Positions 4,344 to 59,400 of a stretch of DNA of 59,568 nt are shown here, piece by piece (positions within the stretch are counted from its first letter, which is position 1; every line of letters begins with the position of its first letter). The DNA comes from Bacteroidales bacterium (GTDB lineage: Bacteria; Bacteroidota; Bacteroidia; Bacteroidales; UBA932). The DNA is taken from contig JAFTFV010000042.1 of the NCBI GenBank assembly GCA_017458265.1, positions 1 to 59,568 on the forward strand, written 5' to 3'. A model generated the notes under the pieces. The model was not told the DNA's origin. It did not search any database and saw only the letters and a program-made list of their open reading frames with translations. Both the position numbers and the translations under genes were made by a program.

Positions 4344-4393
4344 TATAAAAAATGTCTGGGTTGGGCGGCGCCCTGTGTCGATATCGGTCCCTT

Positions 4394-4448
4394 TGCCGCG
4401 TCGGCACGGAAGCACATGCTGGGCGTGGCTCTGGCCGCCAACGCGGCA
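4394..4448 (-). repeat. Single 55-bp palindromic element, reverse orientation
   Basis: It has the same 55-bp length and the same ends (TGCCGCGTCGGCA ... GCCAACGCGGCA) as the dimer units. It ends 1 base from the RAYT stop codon at 4450, an association typical of REP elements and their transposase genes. Confidence 0.85.
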
Positions 4449-4449
4449 G

Positions 4450-5364
4450 TCAGTAGACAAGGCATCGGCAGATTTGGCTTTCGGGAAGGCGGAAATCGTA
4501 TTTCAAGGTGCGGGCGATGCGCTGTTTCTGGCTGGGCGTGAGCTGGTAGACGGAGGTGGCGCCGAAGGATGGCAGCATGTCCTTGTCGATAAGGCGGCAG
4601 ACGTCGATGTCCTGCAACTTGTCGGGCCTGAAATTGCGACCATATTCGTTCGAGAGCATGGTGGCGACGGATTTTTCGTCGGCACGCTCTATATCATTGA
4701 GGGTGAGTGGCTTCCCGGTATTATCTTTGGCTTGTTCCCGGACCCAGCTCTCGTCCGTGAGGCGGTTCATCTGGTAAAGGAAATTCCTGGGAGTGGCATA
4801 TAGCTGTTCCACCCGGCGGAACTCCATGAAGGAGCGTCTTTCAAAGAATCCGTGCCGATTCATTCGGAATTCGTCCGGAAACTTCGCATACCGGGGAAGG
4901 AATCCGGCAATCTCGTTTCTGGACATGTCGGCAAAGGGTTCCGCAGCGAAGCCTAAATCCCGTGGGAACAGCTCGCGGACAGAGCAGAACTCATAACCCC
5001 ATGGCGTTGCAGCGGCGCAGTGGTGAAGCCCGTTACGCAGGATGTAGTTGTCCAATACCATCCTGTGATTGAAACCGCTCACTTTCTGGATGTAAGTGTA
5101 TTTTTCACCCATGCGCCCCCTGCGCCCCCACCGGTGGTTGAAATACTTGGTGTACGACATCCTCAGAAGGGATGCGTTTTTCATCGGGCAGTCCGTAAAA
5201 GCATCCAGGTGAACATGGTTGGACATTTCGGCATCTGCCATATATTCGGTGCCGTCGGCATAACTCCTCAAGGCGAGAAGGTTCAAGAACATACCATGAT
5301 CTTCCCCATCCCTGAACATGACCTCTGAATGAGAGGTAAAGCACAAATGGTAATTCTCTTTCAT
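4450..5364 (-). CDS. REP-associated tyrosine transposase (RAYT, Y1_Tnp-like)
   Basis: Protein of 304 residues from the Y1 single-strand transposase superfamily. It contains the HUH metal-binding motif in AEMSNHVHLDAF, the family-like YFNHRWGRRGR, and NYILRNGLHH, in the position of the RAYT catalytic Tyr motif (usually YIHxNP). The C-terminal part (LTPSQKQRIARTL) looks like a helix-turn-helix. RAYTs bind and cut palindromic REP elements in single-stranded form and are usually single-copy domesticated genes. The start at 5364 is chosen because upstream codons run into repeats. The stop abuts a 55-bp element, and a dimer lies 142 bases upstream of the start. This makes these palindromes its likely substrates. 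Confidence 0.85.
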   Translation of the reverse strand: MKENYHLCFTSHSEVMFRDGEDHGMFLNLLALRSYADGTEYMADAEMSNHVHLDAFTDCPMKNASLLRMSYTKYFNHRWGRRGRMGEKYTYIQKVSGFNHRMVLDNYILRNGLHHCAAATPWGYEFCSVRELFPRDLGFAAEPFADMSRNEIAGFLPRYAKFPDEFRMNRHGFFERRSFMEFRRVEQLYATPRNFLYQMNRLTDESWVREQAKDNTGKPLTLNDIERADEKSVATMLSNEYGRNFRPDKLQDIDVCRLIDKDMLPSFGATSVYQLTPSQKQRIARTLKYDFRLPESQICRCLVY

Positions 5365-5505
5365 GTCCGGCAAGTTAGATTTCTTTGGATAGATTTCCAA
5401 CAGCCTCTTCTTTAGGCGAAGGTACTTTTCTGAAAAAACGTGCAGATTTATACGTTTCCAACGATTTTTCCGTTTCGATAATATTTCTGAATTCTTTGAC
5501 TTGCT

Positions 5506-5644
5506 TGCCGCGTCGGCACGGAAATATGTGCTGGACGTGGCTCTGACTGCCAACGCGGCAACGATTTTGCCGGTTTGGGCGGTTTTGCTTGCCGCGTCGG
5601 CACGGAATTGGGCACTGAGGGTGGCTCTGGCCGCCAACGCGGCA
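5506..5644 (-). repeat. Dimer of 55-bp palindromic elements (55-29-55), reverse orientation
   Basis: Elements 5506-5560 and 5590-5644 with a 29-bp spacer 5561-5589. The spacer's reverse complement matches the spacer at 2908-2936 at nearly all positions. The dimer is inverted relative to 2853-2991, so the two frame the fucosidase and RAYT genes. The 454-base gap 5365-5818 otherwise holds only the thrS promoter and a short AT-rich inverted repeat at about 5730-5750. Confidence 0.85.
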
Positions 5645-15070: not shown

Positions 15071-15816
15071 TGAGAGAAAAGACGGTTTTCGGCCCCATTT
15101 TCAGCCGCAGGCTGGGGAGTTCTCTGGGCATCAACCTTCTGCCCCAGGAGGGGAAGGTGTGCAACTTCGACTGCATCTACTGCGAGTGCGGCTGGAATAA
15201 GGACGGGCTGGCAGACAGGACAATACCATCGGCAAAGGACGTGAGGGAGGCCCTTGAAACGAAGCTCCTGGAGTGCTCCGGGAACGGGACGCCAATCGAC
15301 TCCATCACCTTCTCCGGCGACGGCGAACCCACCCTGAACCCGGAATTCCCGCAGATAGTTGCCGATACGCTCGCCCTCCGGGACAGATATTTCCCGTCGG
15401 CAAAGGTCTCCGTGCTCTCAAACGCCACAATGGCTTTCAAGGCCGATGTTTTCGAGGCCCTCACGCGCGTAGACAATCCCATAATGAAGATAGACGCGCC
15501 CACCAGTGAAAAGGCCGCTCTCATCAACAGGCCCGTGGGCCGATATTCGGTAGAGGAGGTAATCGCCTCCCTGGAGCGTTTCAAGGGCGATTTTGTCCTG
15601 CAGACCATGTTCCTGAAGGCCCCTTCCTTCTGCACGGGAGACTGGGTGTCAGAGTGGATGTCGATAGTGCGCAGGCTGCGCCCGCGGGAGGTCATGGTCT
15701 ACACCATAGACAGGGAAACGCCCATGAAAGGCCTTTCCAAGTACACTGTAGAGGAGATGCGCTCACTGGTGCAGCCTCTCATAGATGAAGGATATAAAAT
15801 ACAAATTAAAGGATAA
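15067..15816 (+). CDS. Radical SAM protein (COG0731-like)
   Basis: Protein of 249 residues with the radical SAM cluster motif CNFDCIYC at about 34-41. A SAM-binding segment ITFSGDGEPTLNPEF and the opening FGPIFSRRLGSSLGINLLP are typical of the COG0731 group, related to wyosine-synthesis and other Fe-S oxidoreductases. The substrate is unknown. It starts ATGATG, overlapping the previous stop, and ends 4 bases before deoC, placing it mid-operon. Confidence 0.85.
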   Translation: MMREKTVFGPIFSRRLGSSLGINLLPQEGKVCNFDCIYCECGWNKDGLADRTIPSAKDVREALETKLLECSGNGTPIDSITFSGDGEPTLNPEFPQIVADTLALRDRYFPSAKVSVLSNATMAFKADVFEALTRVDNPIMKIDAPTSEKAALINRPVGRYSVEEVIASLERFKGDFVLQTMFLKAPSFCTGDWVSEWMSIVRRLRPREVMVYTIDRETPMKGLSKYTVEEMRSLVQPLIDEGYKIQIKG

Positions 15817-15820
15817 ATAT

Positions 15821-16711
15821 ATGTCACTTTCAAGTAAATACGGCTACACGCCGGACAAAGAGGCCATTGCCCGCCATCTGGAGCTTATTGCCAGCAACCT
15901 GGACAAGGTGGCGTCGGAAAAGGTGTACAAGGAGTGCTTTGCCATCATGGACCTTACCACCCTTGCAAACGAGGATACGCCCGCAAGCGTCGCAGCCCTC
16001 ACCGCTAAGGTAAACTCCTTCGAGAAGGACTATCCTTCCTATCCGCTCCCAGCATCCATCTGCGTATATCCCAACCTGGGTCACGTGGTGGCTTCTACAC
16101 GCAGCAATCCGGCAGTCCATGTGACCACCGTTGCAGGCTGCTTCCCCACGTCACAGAGCTTCCTGGAGGTCAAACTGCATGAGATTGAACTTGCCGTACG
16201 CGGCGGTGCCGACGAGATAGACATCGTCCTGGCCCTCAACAGCTTCCTCGCCGGCGACATTGAAACCGCAGGTGCAGAGATACTTGCCTCCCGTGGGTGC
16301 ATCGACAAGGTGGCCGCCGAGCTTGGCCGTCCCGTTGTGCTCAAGGTCATCCTTGAGACCGGCCTCCTGGTAACCCCCGAACTCATTGCCGAAGCCTCCT
16401 TCCTCGCAATGGAAAACGGTGCCGATTTCATCAAGACCTCTACCGGCAAGGTGAAAGTGAACGCTACGCCCCAGGCCGCATATGTCATGTGCCAGTGCAT
16501 CAAGAAGTACTATGAGTCCACCGGCAAGAAGGTTGGCTTCAAGGCCGCCGGCGGCATCTCCTCTGCCCTTGACGCAGTGTGCTACTACTCCATCGTGAGC
16601 ACCGTCCTCGGCAGCGAATGGCTCAATAAGAACCTGTTCCGCTTCGGAGTCTCCCGCCTCGCAAACCAGATCCTCTCTGCCGTGGAGCAGAAGACCGTGG
16701 CCTATTTCTAA
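15821..16711 (+). CDS. deoC: Deoxyribose-phosphate aldolase
   Basis: Class I aldolase that splits 2-deoxyribose-5-phosphate into acetaldehyde and glyceraldehyde-3-phosphate. 296 residues, the long Bacteroidota form. Catalytic lysines are visible in VVLKVILETG and FIKTSTG, and KAAGGISS marks the phosphate site. ATG 15821 is preferred because AAAGGA (15808-15813) lies 7 bases upstream and homologs start near MSLSSKYGY. The TAA stop is also the first three bases of the left inverted-repeat arm around GH3, so the repeat boundary coincides with the gene's end. Confidence 0.96.
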   Translation: MSLSSKYGYTPDKEAIARHLELIASNLDKVASEKVYKECFAIMDLTTLANEDTPASVAALTAKVNSFEKDYPSYPLPASICVYPNLGHVVASTRSNPAVHVTTVAGCFPTSQSFLEVKLHEIELAVRGGADEIDIVLALNSFLAGDIETAGAEILASRGCIDKVAAELGRPVVLKVILETGLLVTPELIAEASFLAMENGADFIKTSTGKVKVNATPQAAYVMCQCIKKYYESTGKKVGFKAAGGISSALDAVCYYSIVSTVLGSEWLNKNLFRFGVSRLANQILSAVEQKTVAYF

Positions 16712-16976
16712 TACAGGGGGCTCTGCCCCCTCATACACCCCCGCCGCTCCGGGCTAGTATGTCTTTGCTCGTAAACGGACGCCCAATTTGCAAAGACACG
16801 CCCTCCACGGGGCGCCTGATGGCGCCTGGATACTAGTTAGCAGGCTGTTAGCTTGATACATTCAAACCACCGTTTGGGGCTCTGGAAGGGCGCTTTTGGT
16901 GGTTTGGCAGGGTTTAAACTACGGCAAACCACCGTTTTCGGCCTTTGACGCACGAAAACGGTGGTTTGAATGTATC
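16709..16976 (+). repeat. Left arm (268 bp) of long inverted repeat flanking GH3
   Basis: It matches the reverse complement of 19116-19382 end to end by eye, with one substitution (GGGG against GGAG after ACCGTTT) and a one-base indel (GGATACTAG against GGAACTAG). The outer part holds AGGGGGCTCTGCCCCCT and TGTCTTTGC/GCAAAGACA palindromes. The inner 122 bp (16855-16976) has 21-bp perfect terminal inverted repeats beginning GATACATTCAAACC. The stretch 16712-16987 has no gene. Confidence 0.92.
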
Positions 16977-16987
16977 GGCACGGTCAC

Positions 16988-19090
16988 TTACATTTCACGC
17001 ACGACGGTCTTCACGGAGGCGGAACTGCCGCCAACCTGGAATTCCCAGGTGCCGTGGGTGGGAACCATGTCGCGGGCATCGGCAGACCAGCTCAGGAGGA
17101 CGTCGTCGGTGAGTTTGAAACGCACTTTGACGGTTTCGCCGGCCTTGACGGGAACGCGCTGAAAACCGCGGAGGCTCTTGACGGGGCCTTCGGTGTCTTC
17201 GGCAAGACGGGTGTAGAGTTGGACAACTTCCACGCCGTCTACAGAGCCGGTGTTGGTGAGTGAAACCTCAAGCGTACGGCCCTTTATGCGGGGTTCTCCG
17301 TACTCGAAGGTGGTATAGCTCAGACCATAGCCGAAGGGGAAGAGAGGCTCGCCGCGGAAGTAGCGGTAGGTATGGCCTTCCATCGTGTAGTCTTCGAAAT
17401 CCGGAAGCTGGTCTGCGTTCTTGTAGAAGGTGACCGGAAGCTTGCCGGAGGGGTTCACGTCGCCGTAGAGGACCTCGGCAATGGCGGCTGCACCTTCCTC
17501 GCCGGGATACCATGCCTGGAGGATGGCGTCGCAGTTGGAGGTCTCAGGAACAAGGCCCATTGCAGAGCCGGAGAAGTTCACCAGAACCACTTTCTTTCCT
17601 GCCTCGTGGAGCGCTGCAATGAGTTCGCGCTGCACCTGAGGGAGTTCTATGGAGGTGCGGTCTCCGCCCTTGAAGCCTGGGAAGGAAACCTTCATTTCCT
17701 CGCCTTCCAGATGGGGTGAGATACCTCCGGCGAAGATTACCGTGTCATATCCCGAAAGGCTGTCAAGGACTGCCAGTACGTCGGTGGTGCCAAGGACCAG
17801 GCGGCATCCTTTCACGTAGGGAGCATCGGCACTGCGTTCACGGATGGCCTCAAGAAGGGTGAGGGTATGCTCGGGAATGGGGTTGTAGTTGCCCCAGAGC
17901 ATTTCTTTTTCATCGGCATTGGGGCCTACTACGGCTATGCGGGTATCGGGAGCAAGGGGCAGGATGCCGTCATTCCGGAGGAGAACCAGGCTCTCGCGGG
18001 CCATGCAGCGGGCAAGGGCAAGATGTTCGGGACCTTCAACTATGTCTTCTGAAAGGCCGTCCCACTGGGTAGGAAGGTTCTCCATCTCTCCAAGGCGGAA
18101 CCGCTGGGTGAGAAGGCGGAGGAGGCTGCGGTCTACGTCGGCCTCGTCAAGAAGACCGTTGGCTACGGCCTCGGGAATCTGTTCGTAGGATTCGCCGCAG
18201 TTAAGGTCTGTTCCGGCATGGATGGCGGCAGCGGCGGCGTGGGCCTTGTCCGGAGAGTAGTTGTGATATCCGGGAGTGAAGTCCTTGATGGCCCAGCAGT
18301 CGGAGGTGATAAGGCCCTTGTAGCCCCATTCTCCGCGGAGGATTGTGTTTATGAGGTAGTCAGATGCACCGCAGGGAACGCCCCTGAAGCGGTTGTATGC
18401 TATCATGACCTCCTGGACATGGGCTTTTACCACCAGGTCCTTGAAAGCGGGAAGATAGGTTTCGCGAAGGTCGCGTTCCGATACTTCTGCATTATATGTA
18501 TGCCTGTTCCATTCCGGGCCGGAGTGCACTGCAAAGTGCTTTGCGCATGCGTGGGCCTTGAGGACGGGTGCGTTCACGTCTCCCTGCAGGCCGTTCACTA
18601 CGGCAACGCCCATGCGGCCGGTAAGGTACGGATCTTCACCGTATGTCTCCATTCCGCGTCCCCAGCGGGGGTCACGGAAAATGTTTATGTTTGGAGTCCA
18701 GAACGTAAGTCCCTCATAATGACCAACGTGTCCCTTTTCCTTGGCCAGGCGGTTCTTGACGCGGGCTTCGTCGCTCACGGCGGTGAAGACGTCCAGAAGA
18801 AGGGCGTCGTCAAAGGATGCGGCCATGCCGATAGGCTGCGGGAAAGTAGTGGCCTTTCCGTTACGGGCCACACCGTGCAGGGCTTCGTTCCACCAGTTGT
18901 ACGCGGGAATCTCCTTCACCGGAGCATCCTCTGCGGTAACGGTGACCGGTGCCGACGGATGCATCATCAGCGACGCCTTCTCCTCAATAGTGAGTCCCTC
19001 GATGAGCTTTGCGGCCTTTTCCTCTGCCGATGGCTTAACATTACACGACATTACAGTCAAAATCGTTAAAAATACTATACGCTTTTTCAT
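16988..19090 (-). CDS. GH3 beta-glycosidase lipoprotein (beta-xylosidase/beta-glucosidase type)
   Basis: Family GH3 enzyme of 700 residues with a lipoprotein signal ending TVMSC. The barrel domain shows YNWWNEALHGVAR, PNINIFRDPRWGRGMETYGEDP, KHFAVHSGPEWNRH and LITSDCWAI (Asp nucleophile). The alpha/beta sandwich has IAVVGPNADE and LVNFSGSAM, and a C-terminal FnIII-like domain runs about 590-700. NWWNEALHG and SDC are more common in beta-xylosidase-like members; exact specificity is uncertain. The start at 19090 fits the signal peptide and a good promoter. The gene fills the space between two inverted repeat arms, stopping 11 bases from one and starting 25 bases from the other. Confidence 0.94.
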   Translation of the reverse strand: MKKRIVFLTILTVMSCNVKPSAEEKAAKLIEGLTIEEKASLMMHPSAPVTVTAEDAPVKEIPAYNWWNEALHGVARNGKATTFPQPIGMAASFDDALLLDVFTAVSDEARVKNRLAKEKGHVGHYEGLTFWTPNINIFRDPRWGRGMETYGEDPYLTGRMGVAVVNGLQGDVNAPVLKAHACAKHFAVHSGPEWNRHTYNAEVSERDLRETYLPAFKDLVVKAHVQEVMIAYNRFRGVPCGASDYLINTILRGEWGYKGLITSDCWAIKDFTPGYHNYSPDKAHAAAAAIHAGTDLNCGESYEQIPEAVANGLLDEADVDRSLLRLLTQRFRLGEMENLPTQWDGLSEDIVEGPEHLALARCMARESLVLLRNDGILPLAPDTRIAVVGPNADEKEMLWGNYNPIPEHTLTLLEAIRERSADAPYVKGCRLVLGTTDVLAVLDSLSGYDTVIFAGGISPHLEGEEMKVSFPGFKGGDRTSIELPQVQRELIAALHEAGKKVVLVNFSGSAMGLVPETSNCDAILQAWYPGEEGAAAIAEVLYGDVNPSGKLPVTFYKNADQLPDFEDYTMEGHTYRYFRGEPLFPFGYGLSYTTFEYGEPRIKGRTLEVSLTNTGSVDGVEVVQLYTRLAEDTEGPVKSLRGFQRVPVKAGETVKVRFKLTDDVLLSWSADARDMVPTHGTWEFQVGGSSASVKTVVREM

Positions 19091-19095
19091 AAACA

Positions 19096-19127
19096 CAAAT
19101 ATAACCAATTACTTTGATACATTCAAA
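19096..19127 (-). promoter_or_regulatory. Promoter for GH3 (-33 TTTG inside the repeat arm, -7 TATATTTG)
   Basis: On the minus strand TTTG (19124-19127) is followed by a 20-base spacer and TATATTTG (19096-19103), then the ATG 5 bases on. This matches the Bacteroidota consensus with correct spacing. The -33 box lies in the last 12 bases of the right repeat arm. Confidence 0.72.
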
Positions 19128-19382
19128 CCACCGTTTTCGTGCGTCAAAGGCCGAAAACGGTGGTTTGCCGTAGTTTAAACCCTGCCAAACCACCAAAAGC
19201 GCCCTTCCAGAGCTCCAAACGGTGGTTTGAATGTATCAAGCTAACAGCCTGCTAACTAGTTCCAGGCGCCATCAGGCGCCCCGTGGAGGGCGTGTCTTTG
19301 CAAATTGGGCGTCCGTTTACGAGCAAAGACATACTAGCCCGGAGCGGCGGGGGTGTATGAGGGGGCAGAGCCCCCTGTATTA
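19116..19382 (-). repeat. Right arm (267 bp) of long inverted repeat flanking GH3
   Basis: Reverse complement of 16709-16976 with about two differences. The outer end stops 9 bases from the GH92 stop codon. With the left arm it bounds a 2,674-bp cassette holding only the GH3 gene. Confidence 0.92.
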
Positions 19383-19391
19383 ATAGCAACA

Positions 19392-21968
19392 CTACCGGGC
19401 CCAGAGTTCGTCTACGAAGATGAAGCCGGGGGAGCCGGCGCCGGGGTGCCAGGAGGGGATGGTGCCGATGTTCCTGGCGAAGACCTTTACGTAGCGGGCG
19501 GTGCAGGAGACGGGGAGCTCTGCGTCCCAGACCTGAATGGTGTAGTCGCGCTGGTCCACGGTGGTGTCAAGACGGCCGGCGGGGGTGAAGTTCACTCCGT
19601 CCGAAGAGACGGAGAACTCCACGTAGCGCGGCATCCAGATCCAGGAGCGTGCGTCCTGGCAGAATCCTGCTCCTACGACACTCAGAGGGCGTTCTTCCAA
19701 GAGATCCAGTATGGCTGTGAAGTCTGTGTCCTGATAGCCCTGCCAGCCGCCGGTGCGCCAGTTAAGGCCGCCGCGGGTGCTGTCGATGAGGCCCTCGTCG
19801 CCGCCTGCGGTGTACTGCGAGCTGTAGCGGGAGAGTATCTTCACCGCCCTGTCTTTCTGCACTTGGCGTACGTGGCAGCGCGTTACGAAGCTCTTGCGGT
19901 AGTTCTTCTCAGACCAGGCGGTGAGCTCGCATGCTTCGTGAACCGTGAACGGTCCTTCGTAAACCATGGGCTCAGAACCCGCCACTGTATAATAGGTGGT
20001 GCCGTCTCCGCCTTTTATCTCCACGGCAAGGGAGTCAGTGAAGATATCGCTGTCCATCACGAAGTACGGATTGCGGATGAGGTTGTCCTGCATGGAGGTG
20101 AGATTGGTCCCCACCGGAGCGCCCGGGCATAGGGGATACCTGCCGATTGATGACAGCACGTACCATGCGCTCATCTGGCCGCAGTCGTCATTGCCGCAAA
20201 GCCCGTCCGGGGCCGATGTGTACAGCTTTTCCAGTATCTCACGCACGCGGGCGGCCCTTTTGTCGGCCCTGCCGATGGCGTCGTAGAGGTACACGATATG
20301 GTGGCTGGGCTCGTTCCCGTGGGCATACTGGCCGATGCAGCCGGTGATGTCGGCCTGCTTGCGTCCCGTGGTGCCCTCCGGCGTTTCGAAGAGAGCGTCA
20401 AGGCGGGCTTCAAAGGCCTCGGGGCCGCCAAGGGCCTTTATGAGGCCTGCGATGTCCTGCGGCACGAAGAAGCTGTACTGCCAGGAGTTGGCCTCTGTGT
20501 AGTTGTTGTTCACTTCGCGCGGGTCGAAGGGGCTGAACCACCTTCCGTTGAGCCTTGCCCTCATGAAGAGGGTTTCAGGGTCCAGCACGTTCTTCCAGTA
20601 CTGGGCGCTTTTCATGAACTCGCGGTAGTCGTCCTTGTGGCCCAGTTTCAGGGCCACCTGGGCGGTGCACCAGTCATCGTAGGCGTACTCCAGCGTCTTG
20701 GAGACGCTTTCGTGCTCGTCATCGGCAAGGACAAGCCCGTTTCGACGGAAACTGTCAAGGCCGAACTCCGTGGTAAGGGCCGATGCCTTCATGGCCTCGT
20801 AGGCCTTTTCGTAGTCGAAGCCCTTGATGCCGCGGGCAATGGCATCGGCAATGACGGGTGCGCTGTTGTAGCCTATCATGCAGTTGGTTTCGTAGCCGGA
20901 GAGCTCCCAGACGGGGAGTTTTCCCTGCTCTTCGTAGATGGAGATCATGGTGTTGATGAAGTCTCCGGTGCGCTCAGGCTCTATTTCGGAGAGGAGGGGA
21001 TGCAGGCCGCGGAAGGTGTCCCATGTGGAGAAGACGGTGTAGCGGTCCCAGCCGCCAGTGTTGTGCACCTTGCCGTCCATGCCGCGGTACTCACCGTTCA
21101 CGTCGGAATAGAGGGAAGGGTGGATGGCGGTATGGTAGAGGGCCGTGTAGAAGCGGATGCGGTGGTCCTTGTCGTTGTAGGGGCAGTTGACTTTCTTCAG
21201 GTATGCCTGCCAGGCCTTCTTGGCAGCCTTTTCCTGGGCGTCCACGCTCTTTGGGTATTCGGAGAGGAGGTTTTCGCGCGCGTTCTCCCATGAGACGGAG
21301 GAGATGCCGGCGCGGACGGTGAGCTTGCTGGAGGAGAAGCGGATATCGGCCTTGGGGCCGTTTACAGTGCTCTTTTTGGGCTTGTCGGAGAACTCCAGGT
21401 AGAAGTATATTTTCTGGCCGCGGGCCCAGCTGGAGGAGACGCGGTAGCCATAGCAGGCCTTGCCGTCCACGGTGATGCTGAAGTCGTCCAGGGGATCCCT
21501 GTGGGCAAGGTCTACGGTGATGTTAGCCCTGCCCTTGGAGAAGCTGTATTCGTGGATGGCGCTGCGGCGTCCTGCGGCAAGGCGCGCGGTGACGCCCGTG
21601 TCGCTGAGCTTCACCTCATAGTAGCCGGGAGTGGCGGTCTCGTTCACGTGATAGAAGGCCGACGGCTTGCCGCCCGGGGTGATGAGGATGTCGCACCAGT
21701 CGTCACATCCGGTGCCGCTCAGGTGGGTGTGCGAGAAGCCGTAGATTACCTTGTCTGAGTAGTGATAACCGCTACAGCCGTCCCAGTCACCCGCGTTGGG
21801 GCGGGTGTCAGGGGACAGCTGTATCATGCCAAAGGGATAGACTGCACCGGGGAATGTATGCCCGTGTGCGTCAGTTCCGATGAATGGATTTACGTACTGT
21901 GTAAGGTCCTGTGCGCTTGCCTGTGCAAGCATGAGGATTGCTGTGAGTAGAGCTGTCAACCGTTTCAT
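19392..21968 (-). CDS. GH92 alpha-mannosidase, secreted
   Basis: Exo-acting, calcium-dependent family GH92 enzyme of 858 residues with a signal peptide (MKRLTALLTAILMLAQASAQ). The N-terminal beta-sandwich starts YVNPFIGTDAHGHTFPGAVYPFG. The (alpha/alpha)6 domain carries WDTFRGLHPL and the family hallmark GLCGNDDCGQMSAWYVLSS. A C-terminal F5/8-type or CBM32-like sandwich covers about 715-858 (YVEFSVSSDGVNF ... VKVFARNIGTIPSWH). It would trim mannose from host or yeast glycans. The linkage is probably alpha-1,2 or 1,3 and is not readable from sequence. Monocistronic behind its own -7 box. Confidence 0.95.
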   Translation of the reverse strand: MKRLTALLTAILMLAQASAQDLTQYVNPFIGTDAHGHTFPGAVYPFGMIQLSPDTRPNAGDWDGCSGYHYSDKVIYGFSHTHLSGTGCDDWCDILITPGGKPSAFYHVNETATPGYYEVKLSDTGVTARLAAGRRSAIHEYSFSKGRANITVDLAHRDPLDDFSITVDGKACYGYRVSSSWARGQKIYFYLEFSDKPKKSTVNGPKADIRFSSSKLTVRAGISSVSWENARENLLSEYPKSVDAQEKAAKKAWQAYLKKVNCPYNDKDHRIRFYTALYHTAIHPSLYSDVNGEYRGMDGKVHNTGGWDRYTVFSTWDTFRGLHPLLSEIEPERTGDFINTMISIYEEQGKLPVWELSGYETNCMIGYNSAPVIADAIARGIKGFDYEKAYEAMKASALTTEFGLDSFRRNGLVLADDEHESVSKTLEYAYDDWCTAQVALKLGHKDDYREFMKSAQYWKNVLDPETLFMRARLNGRWFSPFDPREVNNNYTEANSWQYSFFVPQDIAGLIKALGGPEAFEARLDALFETPEGTTGRKQADITGCIGQYAHGNEPSHHIVYLYDAIGRADKRAARVREILEKLYTSAPDGLCGNDDCGQMSAWYVLSSIGRYPLCPGAPVGTNLTSMQDNLIRNPYFVMDSDIFTDSLAVEIKGGDGTTYYTVAGSEPMVYEGPFTVHEACELTAWSEKNYRKSFVTRCHVRQVQKDRAVKILSRYSSQYTAGGDEGLIDSTRGGLNWRTGGWQGYQDTDFTAILDLLEERPLSVVGAGFCQDARSWIWMPRYVEFSVSSDGVNFTPAGRLDTTVDQRDYTIQVWDAELPVSCTARYVKVFARNIGTIPSWHPGAGSPGFIFVDELWAR

Positions 21969-54459: not shown

Positions 54460-56433
54460 ATGAAAAAATATATTTCCATCCTCGTCGGAATTCTCGCAGC
54501 CATGTCCTGCTCCATGCTCGATTCCGCTATTGATTCTCCTTCCCAGTCTTCGTATGCAGATGATGTCGTCTTCTCCAATTATACACTGGCAGAATACAAT
54601 ATCTTCGGCATAGGGGAAATCTGCGGGCACACCAATTCATACCGTGGCCGTATTCATGCATTTTATGGGACCAATACCGATATAGAGACCTACAGCTCCA
54701 ATTCTTCAGGTATTGAAGACAGCGGTCTGGATGCAGCTGATGACCGCATCAGGATGGCAGAATACAATGCTACGATAAACGATACCCAGAACAATACTGC
54801 CACCAACGCATACAATGAAATTGTAGCCGGTATTGAGAGGGCCAACCTCTGTATCCGCGGTCTCCGCACGTACGGAAACGTGGAGAATGACAAGGACATG
54901 GCTTATCTGCTGGGTGAAGCTCTCACCTACAGGGCTTTCTTCTATTTCGAACTCATAAAGATGTGGGGAGAAGTCCCGCTCCGCACAGAACCTGTATCCT
55001 CTGAAACCATATATCTCAACAAGACCGAGCGCGATGAAATCTACAAGGTCATCCTTGCCGATCTTGATGAAGCCGCCAACTACCTGTACTGGCCGGGCGA
55101 GGCCCGTCAGACCCAGCGGGCAGACCGCATGAACAAGGCGTTTGCCAAAGGTCTTTATGCCCGCATAGCCCTTTCGGCAGCAGGTTGGGCATGGCGCCCC
55201 GATGAGGTTGGTACCGGTGACCTTGGCTCACTCCGCCTTACGACAGACCCTGAACTCAGTGCTTCTGTACTGTATCCAAAGGCTCTCCAGCATCTTAAGG
55301 ATGTGCATGAGTCGGGTACAGCATCTCTTGCCACTGATTATACCGATCTGTGGAAGAAGTTCAACAATTCCGAGCATCTTTCCGGTGTCCCTGAGGTCCT
55401 CTGGGTCATACCCTTCAGCGATGGACGCGGCCGTTGGAACTACACCCACGCCTATCCTCATACCAACGGCGGCCCCTGGATTACGAACAACAGCTCCCGT
55501 GGCGGCAGCACTCTTCCTACAGCCAACCTCTGGTTCAAGTATGACAAGAATGATACCCGTCGTGACCTTACAGTTGTGAACATGCGCTGGAACGGTGAAA
55601 CCCAGGGATGGGAACTCCGTGGAGCCGTGAATTACTGGTTCTGGGGTAAATATCGCTATGAATGGATGATAAACAATCCTTACAATGGCGGTAATGACGA
55701 CGGCATCAAGCCCATCGTCATGCGTTACTCCGATATTCTTCTCATGGGTGCCGAACTCGCCGCCTACGAGCAGGATCTCACAACCGCCCAGGCATGGCTC
55801 GGTGAAGTTCGTGACCGTGCAATGGCCGGCAAAACTGCCACCAAGTATACTGCAGCCGACGCACTTACCCTTGGCAGTGCAGCCAAGGATGGTTCCGGCA
55901 TGATTGCAGACCACAAGGACAAGACAACCATCCTTGGCGCCATATTCAATGAGCGTGCCCTTGAATTCGCTGGTGAATTCCTCCGCAAGCAGGACCTTAT
56001 CCGCTGGGGACTCCTCAAGGATGCCCTTGACGAGGAATGCGCAGACCTGAAGGCTCTTGCCAATATGACAGGAGATTATGCTGCATACGCTGCATATGCC
56101 ACAGACCGCAACACCGACGGGCGTGATTTCAAGACATATCCGCTTTATTGGAAAGAAGACAAGGCCAACCAGCGCATAGTTTTCTTCGGCCTTGACGATA
56201 ATGAAATTGGCAAGACTCCTTCCGATTACACCGCAATTGAGCCCAACGGCTGGAATGTACAGGAACGTTACATCTCTTCAGAGGCTTTCCGTAATTCTAC
56301 TACCGGCAAGTATTCATACGACTGGCTGTACCGCAACAGCTTCGATGATCCCTGGCCGCGTTCCGTATGGCCCATGTATAACCTCACCATGAGCGCTATG
56401 CAGGGTGCCCTCAAGAACGACTATGGATATTGA
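54460..56433 (+). CDS. SusD-like glycan-binding lipoprotein
   Basis: Surface lipoprotein of 657 residues (signal ending LAAMSCSM) that caps the SusC barrel. SusD-type TPR/RagB features: AYNEIVAGIERANLCIRGL, YLLGEALTYRAFFYFELIKMWGEVPL, ADRMNKAFAKGLYARIALSAAGWAW, and the C-terminal FNERALEFAGEFLRKQDLIRWG. Longer than many SusD proteins. AGGAGG sits 9 bases before the ATG, an unusually strong Shine-Dalgarno sequence for this phylum, perhaps ensuring high synthesis relative to SusC. Confidence 0.95.
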   Translation: MKKYISILVGILAAMSCSMLDSAIDSPSQSSYADDVVFSNYTLAEYNIFGIGEICGHTNSYRGRIHAFYGTNTDIETYSSNSSGIEDSGLDAADDRIRMAEYNATINDTQNNTATNAYNEIVAGIERANLCIRGLRTYGNVENDKDMAYLLGEALTYRAFFYFELIKMWGEVPLRTEPVSSETIYLNKTERDEIYKVILADLDEAANYLYWPGEARQTQRADRMNKAFAKGLYARIALSAAGWAWRPDEVGTGDLGSLRLTTDPELSASVLYPKALQHLKDVHESGTASLATDYTDLWKKFNNSEHLSGVPEVLWVIPFSDGRGRWNYTHAYPHTNGGPWITNNSSRGGSTLPTANLWFKYDKNDTRRDLTVVNMRWNGETQGWELRGAVNYWFWGKYRYEWMINNPYNGGNDDGIKPIVMRYSDILLMGAELAAYEQDLTTAQAWLGEVRDRAMAGKTATKYTAADALTLGSAAKDGSGMIADHKDKTTILGAIFNERALEFAGEFLRKQDLIRWGLLKDALDEECADLKALANMTGDYAAYAAYATDRNTDGRDFKTYPLYWKEDKANQRIVFFGLDDNEIGKTPSDYTAIEPNGWNVQERYISSEAFRNSTTGKYSYDWLYRNSFDDPWPRSVWPMYNLTMSAMQGALKNDYGY

Positions 56434-56460: not shown

Positions 56461-59400
56461 ATGAAAAAATTATACAAATCCTTATTATTCATCCTGGGCG
56501 CAGGCGCTCTTCTGGCATCCTGTGCCAGGCCTGAGGAGCTCATCGAGGACATCGAGTATGCCAGGGTTCTCACTCCTTTGAAATTCGACGCCGAAGTGGT
56601 GGCATCCACTGGTACCGATGTCACCTTCTCATGGCAGAAAATCAAAAATGCCGATGGTTATGAACTCGAGGTTTACCAACTGCCTGACGACTCTGACGAA
56701 GTTTCTACAGCCAACACCGGAATCCAAGTAGGTGACACCTATATTCTTGGAGCCGATGAGGTCCCTTATACAGTATATGCCCTTACAGTGGACAAGAGTT
56801 TCTATGCCCGTGTCCGTGGTACCAGTACCACGCTTGAGCCGTCCAACTGGACATATCTCGAGAAGACCTTCTCCACAAAGGCAGTGCGTAACTCCCTTAA
56901 TCCTACGGTTACAGCAAGAACCACCAACAGCGTCACAATTGCCTGGGACAACGCTGCCAACAAGGCAGACCTCACCTCCGTGCGTGTGGAACTTGTCGTT
57001 GGAGGCGCTGAAGCCACCAGGGTTGACATCACTGCCGATGATATCGCGGCCTGCTCCAAGACCATCACCGGTCTTGAAACGGCCCGCGAATACCGCTTCA
57101 CTCTCCTCTATGGAAAGGCCGGGGAGCGCGGCAGCGTGACGGCATTCACCCGTCCCAATCTGGAAGGAGTGAACACAGTTGCCTCAGCGGCAGAGCTTTA
57201 TGCCGCCATCCACAACCAGGCCGGAGAAATCAAGGTAAAGGTTGAGTATTCGGACACCGAACTGGATTTTGCAGATGCATATCCGGACCCCGCACAAAAA
57301 CTTGTCACCGTTGTTGGCGACGTTTACCTTTATGGCGTTCCCACTGAAGATGGCAAAAAGCCGGTTCTGAAGACCGTGGACTTCAATCTGGCCGCCGGCG
57401 CTACAGTATTCCATGTGGAAGACCTGGTGCTTGACGGAAACGGCGTTGGAGCAGTCGTGGAGAACCTCTCAGCAGGTATGACCAAGGTGGAATTCGTGAA
57501 CAGCGAAATCACCGGTTACACCAAAGCTATATATTCAGTTGCAGGCGGCGCATCAGCGGCCAATGTGGAATCTTTCCTCGTTGATGGCTGCTATGTCCAT
57601 GACATAAATGCCGATGGAACCCAGGGCGGTGACTTCATTGATGTCCGTAACGGTGTCAATGGGGATTTTGTGGTCAGAAATTCCACTTTCTACGCTTGTG
57701 CACGTACATTCTTCCGTATTTCAGACAGCGCAAAGGCCGAAAGCGTCCTTGCAGAGAACTGTACTTTCAACCTTGTTACCGCAACCAGAAGTTCCAGCAA
57801 CAATGCCGGTATCTTTGCCGTGCGTGTCGTGACCGGAGCAAAGAGTGTCAAAGCCGTCAAGAATGTGTTCCTGAATGAAATCAGCGACGGCGAAGACCAG
57901 TCGGATGCATCCAAGTGTTTTGTACGCCTGAACCGCAACTCCACTGACTCTTACCGTGTGGTTTCTGAAGGTAACCTCTATTATAATCTTGGTGCTGCTT
58001 TCTTCGTTTCAAATGCAGTGGCTGCTGAAACCGACACCCAGGGAGATGTCGCCTTCGAGACACTTTCCCTTACTGGGGGCGAAATCCTGGATACGGACCC
58101 TTGCGTGAACTCCATTGCCGGCAAGATGTATCTTGCAGGTACCAACGGAGAAAAGATCAAGACCCTCAAGGCCGGCGATCCCCGCTGGTGGGATGCCGTA
58201 ATGCCTGAGGTCATTCGTGAAACCGAGCTCACCGTCGCCCCCGACGAGTACACTTGGGATTTCACTGAAAAGACCATCTATGACACAGAGGAACTTACTG
58301 CAAACACTATCATCGGCAACGCCCGCATCTATGCAACGGCTTCCGTCCCTGCAAATGTGGTCATGTCAAAGGGTATCGACTTCAATGCCGGCGCTTCAGT
58401 GAGCCCGGACGGTGTCCCTACCTATTCCGCAGTTGAGGTCCTTACCTCCGGTTACGGCTCTGTGAAGGTGCTGGGCACCAGCGAGAGCGGAATCGGCACC
58501 CTTCAGGTCCTTGCCTGTGGAGACCGTTATGTTGTCCTTGCCGACGGTGAAGAGCACACCATCAACCTCGGAGACCTCGTCGGCGAGAACAGCATCTACG
58601 TCCTTGCAAACCAGGCCCTTACCCTCAAGAAAATCACCTGGACCAAGAGCCTTGTCCCCGATGAGACCGTTGAAACTCTTGCTACGCCCAAGATAACCAT
58701 TACTCCTACAAAACTTGACGAGGGTACCTCAGAAGACATTGTTGTTTCCTGGCCTTCCGTTGAGAATGCGGAGGATTATGTCCTTACATACCAGGGAGCT
58801 GAGACTATCCTTGCTGAGCCCGGTTTCACAATCCCTGCTGCAGATGTCGCCGTCCTCACGGCAGGAGAGTACACCATAACCGTAAAGGCTCGTCCGGTTG
58901 CCACTTCAACAAAGTATGTGGAATCCGCCGTGGCTGAAGCTACCTTTAAGATTAACAAGGTTGTTCCTCCTTCCGGCGGGGAAGTAACTCTCACATGGGA
59001 CTTCTCCAGTGCCGAATGGCAATCTGCGTTAAGTAGCCAGGCGTCTGCGGCCAATAACAGCGATCAGACAAACTGGAGTGTTACCCTTGACGATCTTACG
59101 TTCAATACTGTTCAGAAGAGTAAATGGAATGCAGCCGGTTATATCCAGACCGGTGGAGGGTCCAAGGTGGCGGATAATGACCGCGTCTTCAGTTTCACCG
59201 CACCAGCGGCAGGAACACTCAAGGTTTGGGCCTCCAACACCAAGAGTGAGGATCCCAGCAGCCGTATGGTTGCAGTGAAGGTCGGCGATGGCGACGAGCA
59301 GAAGGGTGTGGCCCTCACATCCACTACTCAGGTTGAATGTGAATTCGACATTGCTGCCGGAGATGTGAAGATATACGGCACATCCGGTATCCGTATCTAC

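Follow-up and report, generated by a model that had tools for sequence, protein, structure and literature searches.

Inverted hairpin elements around a GH3 gene whose orientation differs between related bacterial genomes

Introduction

MITEs are short elements that have terminal inverted repeats but no gene of their own, and pairs of them are found bracketing other genes. In the phase-variable invertons of gut bacteria, a promoter lies between short inverted sites and occurs in both orientations. PMC5372343 describes inversions of more than 10,000 bp between pairs of inverted repeats in the chromosomes of P. aeruginosa and E. coli, with ends that are unchanged, and also reports that transposed segments have repeats at their ends.

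Here, we analyse a GH3 family gene, encoding a sugar-cleaving enzyme, that is enclosed by near-identical inverted arms in a window (the whole stretch of DNA analysed, 59,568 nucleotides) from the genome of an uncultured member of the Bacteroidales, designated G000, and compare it with the nearest relative found, G057. As in the inversions described in PMC5372343, a segment bounded on each side by inverted repeats is reversed from one related genome to the other, although the segments seen here are mostly gene-sized. We conclude that the locus was probably shaped by inversion and homogenisation between inverted copies of an interspersed hairpin element, a compound of two elements, A and B. The general process is most likely of a known kind, namely inversion and homogenisation at interspersed palindromic repeats, and pairs of these repeats seem to mark sites at which single genes flip and sometimes move. 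Across the two related species, gene-sized pieces have repeatedly been flipped in place, four of eight flips ending at one class of hairpin element (as scored in G057), and these provide both matched and control loci for distinguishing homologous recombination, strand-switching and a dedicated enzyme as the cause of a change in orientation.

The GH3 locus

Inverted arms of 268 bp (16709-16976) and 267 bp (19116-19382) flank the GH3 gene alone. Each arm consists of two dispersed intergenic elements joined together, A (~122 bp) and B (124 bp), the latter made up of two hairpins (h1 and h2) on either side of GTTTAAAC. The features of the locus are as follows, the GTTTAAAC cores having been read off the sequence.

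15785-16711, plus strand: DeoC-family aldolase gene (deoC), left neighbour; orientation unchanged in G057
16709-16830, plus strand: element A, left arm, outer; GC-rich, nhmmer match to A 1-121
16831-16852, no strand: A-B linker, left arm; 1-nt indel relative to the right arm at the linker edge
16853-16976, plus strand: element B, left arm, inner; 124-bp imperfect palindrome, nhmmer match to B 1-124, h1 outside and h2 inside
16912-16919, no strand: GTTTAAAC core of the left B
16988-19090, minus strand: GH3 family gene, enclosed; inverted relative to both neighbours in G057
19116-19239, minus strand: element B, right arm, inner; 99.2% identity to the left B
19173-19180, no strand: GTTTAAAC core of the right B
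19261-19382, minus strand: element A, right arm, outer; identical to the left A over 122 nt
19392-21968, minus strand: GH92 gene, right neighbour; orientation unchanged in G057, adjoins deoC in the distant relative G051

Self-comparison of the arms returned a single inverted pair of 268 columns with 99.25% identity (E 2e-132), the differences being one substitution and one indel. The 1-nt indel divides an outer match of 122 nt at 100% (16709-16830 and 19261-19382) from an inner match of 145 nt at 99% (16832-16976 and 19116-19260). The left arm starts on the deoC stop codon (TAA, 16709-16711). The GH3 frame runs on the minus strand from an ATG at 19090 to a stop at 16988, with 25 bases separating it from the arm on the ATG side and 11 on the stop side, and its product has Pfam GH3 N, GH3 C and Fn3-like domains. 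A scan of seven proteins of the window (GH3, deoC, GH92 and four others close by) revealed no transposase domain. The original prediction, made from the sequence of the window, had described near-perfect inverted arms around the GH3 gene alone, a left boundary on the deoC stop and no transposase inside, and in each of these respects it was accurate.

Elements A and B

Whole-arm matches are found at four places in G000 (two on contig C4, one on C14 at 84% and one on C2 at 79%) among the 42 matches listed, many of which represent one palindrome counted on both strands. The arms, which the original prediction proposed searching for genome-wide, are therefore neither a product of chance nor unique. 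Judged from their flanks and from reading frames, A and B are dispersed, intergenic elements that occur both singly and in pairs. Folded as DNA, the left-arm B reaches -40.5 kcal/mol (z -9.0), its ends pairing with each other over 21 bases as terminal inverted repeats, and the left-arm A has a z of -3.8, with one of 200 shuffles folding equally well. Of 33 B copies, seven carry the inner loop of h2 in the reverse direction, so that flipping takes place at the scale of one hairpin also.

Element B resembles MITEs in being short, in having terminal inverted repeats but no gene of its own and in forming pairs around genes, but no cognate transposase was identified for it and inspection by eye of the flanks of 20 places revealed no constant target-site duplication. 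Like the REP and BIME sequences described in passages of PMC2817692, A and B are intergenic palindromes found singly and in opposed pairs and, like a BIME, B comprises two hairpins in opposed orientation. Unlike those sequences, B has no GT(A/G)G head outside the palindrome (none was seen by eye next to it in 33 aligned copies, GTGG occurring within the stem only), its hairpins are longer, its copies are few and, in contrast to the REP/RAYT arrangement of the same passages, no RAYT gene was found adjoining it.

The arms had no match to phage or plasmid sequences, and viral contigs contained no exact match to a 24-base stretch of B or a 35-base stretch of A; a phage or plasmid origin was dropped on these grounds. 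A known RNA family was likewise rejected, as Rfam at gathering thresholds identified only rRNA and tRNA within the window. A literature search by titles and abstract openings found no published description of the A/B elements.

Orientation of the GH3 gene in G057

At the amino acid level, deoC and GH3 are 97 and 94% identical, respectively, between G057 and G000. The gene order in G000 is deoC(+)-AB-GH3(-)-BA-GH92(-), whereas in G057 it is deoC(+)-B-GH3(+)-B-GH92(-): the aligned block 16855-19237, whose limits are the edges of the two B elements, is inverted and its flanks are colinear. GH3 is thus inverted between the two genomes with B at both ends and, as its neighbours are the same, the segment was inverted after G000 and G057 split. 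On an evolutionary scale, then, the original proposal that the gene could invert is supported, its orientation differing between these two deoC-GH92 loci. Like a phase-variable inverton, the GH3 segment lies between inverted repeats and occurs in both orientations (here between genomes), but it comprises a whole gene rather than a promoter, its arms measure 124-268 bp whereas inverton sites are short, and a Phage_integrase search found no recombinase adjoining it.

The two assemblies are drafts in many contigs (67 and about 30) and several G057 contigs terminate within B, as might be expected if a draft had been wrongly joined through a near-identical inverted repeat. Such an artefact is very improbable, however: with two differences between the arms, exact repeats do not exceed 122 nt, the G057 arms at the GH3 locus are only 84.6% alike and so readily distinguished, and inversions occur at repeat-free places too.

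The two arrangements are not related by a simple switch. The order of the B halves is swapped, with h1 outside and h2 inside in G000 and the opposite in G057, and there is no full A at the G057 locus. Both observations speak against a simple switch: one crossover between the arms cannot link the two states, so the arms themselves must have been flipped or replaced as well. Whereas the inversions in PMC5372343 have unchanged ends, the GH3 arms differ in the orientation of B and in A.

One way of producing such arms is a duplicative inversion, in which staggered breaks or a replication strand-switch copied a single A+B across GH3. The arm match covers A, linker and B and ends at the deoC and GH92 tails, G057 is without a full A here and, at the C14/C5 locus, the genomes differ in arm family, and do so at both arms at once, all of which would fit. 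Set against this, GH3 in G057 is already flanked by a B on either side, in nearly the same places relative to the gene, so that the B pair, at least, may predate the difference in orientation, and we consider a duplicative origin improbable.

On the reading that we prefer, inversion and homogenisation, recombination or replication strand-switching between inverted A+B copies would flip the DNA between them and make both arms alike. The arms would themselves cause the inversions, a dedicated enzyme would be unnecessary, and A would have reached both arms through copying from one of them. The GH3 promoter may be retained when the gene is flipped, since a TATATTTG box lies within the 25 bases 5' of the ATG and TTTG is present in the B stem; by comparison with the promoter consensus, we take these to be a candidate promoter box and a possible upstream box, respectively.

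Similarity between inverted arms

Six pairs of inverted B neighbours in which both members are nearly full length have identities of 0.992, 0.992, 0.976, 0.928, 0.895 and 0.839, and four of the six are mutual best matches. Other B pairs from the same genome (n=252) have a median of 0.782 (Mann-Whitney p 3.7e-5, though pairs are not independent), one of them reaching 0.952, above three of the six, while two same-orientation neighbour pairs have values of 0.782 and 0.798. As a group, therefore, the inverted neighbours are more alike than other pairs (84-99% against a median of 78%), which suggests exchange or copying between arms. Pairs with one truncated member stood outside this test (G057 C13, 91%; C14, 90%; C2 126334/133145, 98%). 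Together with the 99% similarity of the GH3 arms, compared with 84 and 79% for the next whole-arm copies, these values bear out the suggestion of recent formation or homogenisation.

Inverted segments elsewhere in the genome

Eight segments are inverted between G000 and G057 in the 446 kb of G000 compared, the stretches having been selected for carrying A/B and set against one close relative only. In G057, four of the eight have A/B no more than 200 bp from each end; random runs of one to three genes, scored by the same rule, gave a mean of 0.064 and none of 20,000 draws reached four. In G000, A/B is present at both ends of one of seven segments (null 0.041, reached by 799 of 20,000 draws) and at 4 of 14 segment ends (reached by 174 of 20,000). 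The C46 segment was excluded from the G000 count because the contig ends there, and its left end in G057 was set from the element, not from the end of the alignment.

Several of these loci speak against the preferred reading. Three of the eight segments (C50 62377-63672, C50 68340-69311 and C4 24941-25548) lack inverted arms in either genome, and a fourth, C8 24198-27602, is bounded by B on one side alone, and that in G000 but not in G057. At C14 56234-58088, the arms in G000 belong to a different palindrome family and those in G057 are B, the B pair of the G057 counterpart being nominally in the same orientation. A C50 arm pair is 98-99% alike, and the segment enclosed by it is not inverted relative to its right flank. 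C43 164-4459 was rejected as an inverted piece: both of its flanks are minus, and the inverted piece is therefore C43 4579-5681.

Segments at different places and the search for an enzyme

Other A/B-bounded segments are either inverted or located elsewhere. A B-bracketed piece at C57 15904-18329 (C57/C23) is found in G057 at a distance of 4.4 kb, its orientation unchanged. Its inner B halves agree between genomes at 0.90-0.97 and its outer halves at 0.65-0.68, the switch falling at the GTTTAAAC core on both sides, whereas in the right arm at C50, which has not moved, both halves are conserved (0.92 and 0.98). The place without the piece is occupied in G057 by a B of one hairpin and in G000 by a B end of 14 bases.

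A GH3 match at E <= 1e-300 was obtained for 32 of 400 genomes of the genus, none besides that of G057 exceeding 71% identity; G069 has a partial match (residues 23-435, 74%). In a draw of 399 genomes centred on G057, which overlaps largely with these 400, no deoC other than that of G057 was closer than 81% DNA identity. In G051, a distant relative (deoC 87%, GH92 77% amino acid identity), deoC adjoins GH92 without GH3 between them; G054 also has no GH3 there, and in both genomes GH3 adjoins GH94. GH3-GH94 was rejected as the older arrangement, GH94 being in the flank of 3 of 54 GH3 loci and directly adjacent in two (G000 and G057 are among the 54, and some contigs were entered twice).

The core switch, the partial B sequences and the G051 and G054 arrangements could all reflect a mobile cassette, in which a trans-acting enzyme recognises B half-sites and swaps DNA at the GTTTAAAC core, single genes being excised, inserted into another B or flipped. 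We think this unlikely: the core switch is seen in a single case, the GH3 arms break its rule, and Phage_integrase and Y1_Tnp searches found no recombinase next to the arms. More doubtful still is the idea that two hairpin half-sites flanking GTTTAAAC make B a recombination site, at which a putative genus enzyme flips and relocates single chromosomal genes. If true, the B-site system would resemble a cassette system carried on the chromosome but lacking an array, and the matched arms, the core-point chimeras and the reversal of hairpin loops would all be traces of it.

A domain search of G000 identified five Phage_integrase matches, none of them on the GH3 contig; the closest lies on C14, ~5.2 kb away from an A/B copy, and the remaining four are on contigs with no listed A/B match. 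The sole Y1_Tnp match (C57:37573) is ~19 kb from the nearest B. Its protein shares 25% identity over 187 columns (two-sequence E 0.001) with a RAYT-like frame at 4450-5364 of the window, a frame which shows that a diverged RAYT can escape a Y1_Tnp search. RAYT was dropped as the enzyme of B, as neither adjoins B.

For movement of the GH3 gene as a unit, another element of the original prediction, there is indirect support from the G051 arrangement and from the differently placed C57/C23 piece; excision found no direct support. To call the gene packaged was an overstatement, since the arms are dispersed repeats and the other B-bracketed segments inspected, by eye from their reading frames, contain ordinary-looking genes.

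Inversion of GH3 between the same neighbours

According to the original prediction, the GH3 gene is packaged between near-perfect inverted repeats and could invert. The inverted arms are real, with one substitution and one single-base indel between them, and GH3 is the sole gene that they enclose. The first base of the left arm falls on the deoC stop codon. Each arm is made up of two dispersed intergenic elements, A and B:

16709–16976 and 19116–19382: left and right arms
16709–16830: element A, outer part of the left arm, about 122 bp, several GC-rich hairpins (DNA fold z −3.8)
16853–16976: element B, inner part of the left arm, 124 bp, imperfect palindrome, end-to-end fold possible (z −9.0)
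16988–19090, minus strand: GH3

The ability to invert is borne out on an evolutionary scale. In the genome under study (G000, a 2.13-Mb draft in 67 contigs, of which the window is contig C4 entire), GH3 lies on the minus strand between deoC and GH92. In the nearest relative found (G057) the order is deoC plus (97% amino acid identity), B, GH3 plus (94%), B and GH92 minus. The inverted aligned block, 16855–19237 in G000 against 72165–69786 in G057, is bounded at either end by the outer edge of a B copy. Among 400 genomes of the genus, the GH3 matches at E ≤ 1e-300 exceed 71% identity in G057 alone; a partial match (74%) is present in G069. The closest named records by GH3, among the matches listed, are uncultured Bacteroidales, Prevotellaceae and Bacteroidia drafts (≤68% identity), several with a rumen source in their titles.

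The 'packaged cassette' reading is a possible one. A simple two-state switch would not by itself explain these arms, since their half types are exchanged and A has been gained or lost between the two genomes. Of the two hairpins of B, h1 lies outside and h2 inside in G000, the reverse of G057; this goes beyond one crossover between arms and implies that B itself flipped or that the arms were replaced. The G057 arms are 84.6% alike and lack a full A. On the left side of GH3 there, a short stretch rich in GGCGCC (seen by eye) may be a remnant of A.

Ahead of the GH3 ATG, a TATATTTG box lies within 25 bases, with TTTG 20 bases further upstream, inside the B stem. By their consensus these may be promoter elements, and the flipped gene might for this reason remain expressed.

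Anatomy and spread of the elements

Hairpins h1 and h2 have the stems CAAACCACC/GGTGGTTTG and lie on either side of GTTTAAAC, the core. The h2 inner loop is reverse-complemented with stems intact in 7 of 33 B copies (for example G000 C46 8428 and G057 C2 69786), so that flips seem to occur also between inverted stems of ~14 bases.

In G000, 42 arm matches are listed, many of them palindromes counted on both strands, and four span the whole arm. Profile searches of the 446 kb taken from G000 found 8 stretches of A and 21 of B, and those of the 648 kb taken from G057 found 43 A/B stretches. An A/B match occurs in at least 16 of 101 genomes of a genus sample (G000 included), and in eight of these the sole match, among those listed, is to about the first 40–48 bases of A. 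The first ~39 bases of A (TAATACAGGGGGCTCTGCCCCC...) show 84–97% identity in several genus members that have no other listed arm part. The arm gave no matches in phage and plasmid collections, two short probes had no exact match in viral contigs, and no description of A or B was found in the literature searched.

Other inverted segments

Eight segments are inverted relative to their flanks in the stretches compared between G000 and G057.

Segments inverted between the two genomes (G000 coordinates)
C4 16855–19237 (GH3)
C4 24941–25548
C8 24198–27602
C14 56234–58088
C43 4579–5681
C46 8499–12872
C50 62377–63672
C50 68340–69311

The stretches were picked for carrying A/B, so the counts show break placement inside them rather than a genome-wide rate: in G057, A/B lies within 200 bp of both ends of four of the eight, as against a mean of 0.064 when runs of one, two or three genes drawn at random are scored by the same rule (four reached in 0 of 20,000 draws). 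In G000, both ends carry A/B in one of seven segments (reached by 799 of 20,000 draws), and 4 of 14 ends do so (174 of 20,000). Arms are absent from both genomes in three of the eight, and one has B at a single end in one genome only. The gene of the C14 segment is surrounded in G000 by a different palindrome family (AACAGATATCCCCAAGGAG...; 56117–56229 and 58086–58198); its G057 counterpart is inverted with B as brackets, the same gene thus having different arm families.

Likeness of paired arms and a proposed mechanism

Inverted neighbouring B pairs of nearly full length have identities of 0.992 (GH3), 0.992 and 0.976 in G000 and of 0.928, 0.895 and 0.839 (GH3) in G057, and four of the six are mutual best matches. 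The 252 other same-genome B pairs have a median of 0.782 and a maximum of 0.952. Neighbours in the same orientation, of which there are two pairs, do not stand out (0.782, 0.798). We attribute the unusual likeness of inverted neighbours to exchange or copying between arms. In the matched C50 pair, the enclosed segment is not inverted relative to its right flank; the G057 contig begins in the left arm, leaving the left flank uninformative.

The likeliest mechanism is recombination between palindromic elements of this kind in inverted orientation, either RecA-dependent or by strand-switching at hairpins; this would flip the enclosed piece and would also make the two arms alike. Inversion of this general kind is already known (PMC5372343), with no description of single genes flipped between A/B elements found in the literature searched. 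The window contig has no Phage_integrase match; G000 has five, the nearest about 5.2 kb from a listed A/B copy.

The strongest pointer to a process specific to the core is a single case. The piece at C57 15904–18329, with arms 98–99% alike, has its G057 position 4.4 kb further on, in unchanged orientation. Between genomes its inner arm halves are alike at 0.90–0.97 and its outer halves at 0.65–0.68, the likeness switching at the core on both arms; the unmoved C50 right arm keeps both halves (0.92, 0.98). The site without the piece holds one B-like hairpin in G057 and a 14-base B end in G000.

Origin of GH3 at this locus

GH3 probably entered between deoC and GH92 on the lineage of G000 and G057, judging from two outgroups that have no GH3 there and carry it (70–71%) directly beside a GH94 gene. 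In one (G051) deoC adjoins GH92 across ~30 bases; in the other (G054) GH92 is in opposite orientation relative to G000, G057 and G051, and the interval (L283 2422–2770) is a run of other short repeats. GH94 lies inside the flank at 3 of 54 GH3 loci examined and immediately adjacent at two. The G057 GH94 gene is on a separate contig with no GH3 alongside, and that of G000 is truncated where contig C17 begins, its neighbour lying beyond the edge.

Other repeats and contig ends

Several further G057 contigs terminate inside B, as expected if B breaks assembly or if the population varies in orientation. The 3.4-kb G057 contig C13 (L246), counterpart of G000 C29 9823–13202, is one segment with partial B at both ends and a putative release-factor gene (by eye).

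In the window, a minus-strand reading frame at 4450–5364 has an NHVHL motif and 25% identity, over part of its length, to the genome's Y1_Tnp protein, with no significant match in Pfam or NCBIfam. It is flanked at 2853–2996, 4393–4449 and 5501–5644 by a different hairpin repeat (TGCCGCG..CGCGGCA) in inverted copies, and resembles a diverged RAYT accompanied by repeats of its own. A 115-bp direct repeat, 96% identical, lies at the contig end (58995–59109 and 59454–59568).
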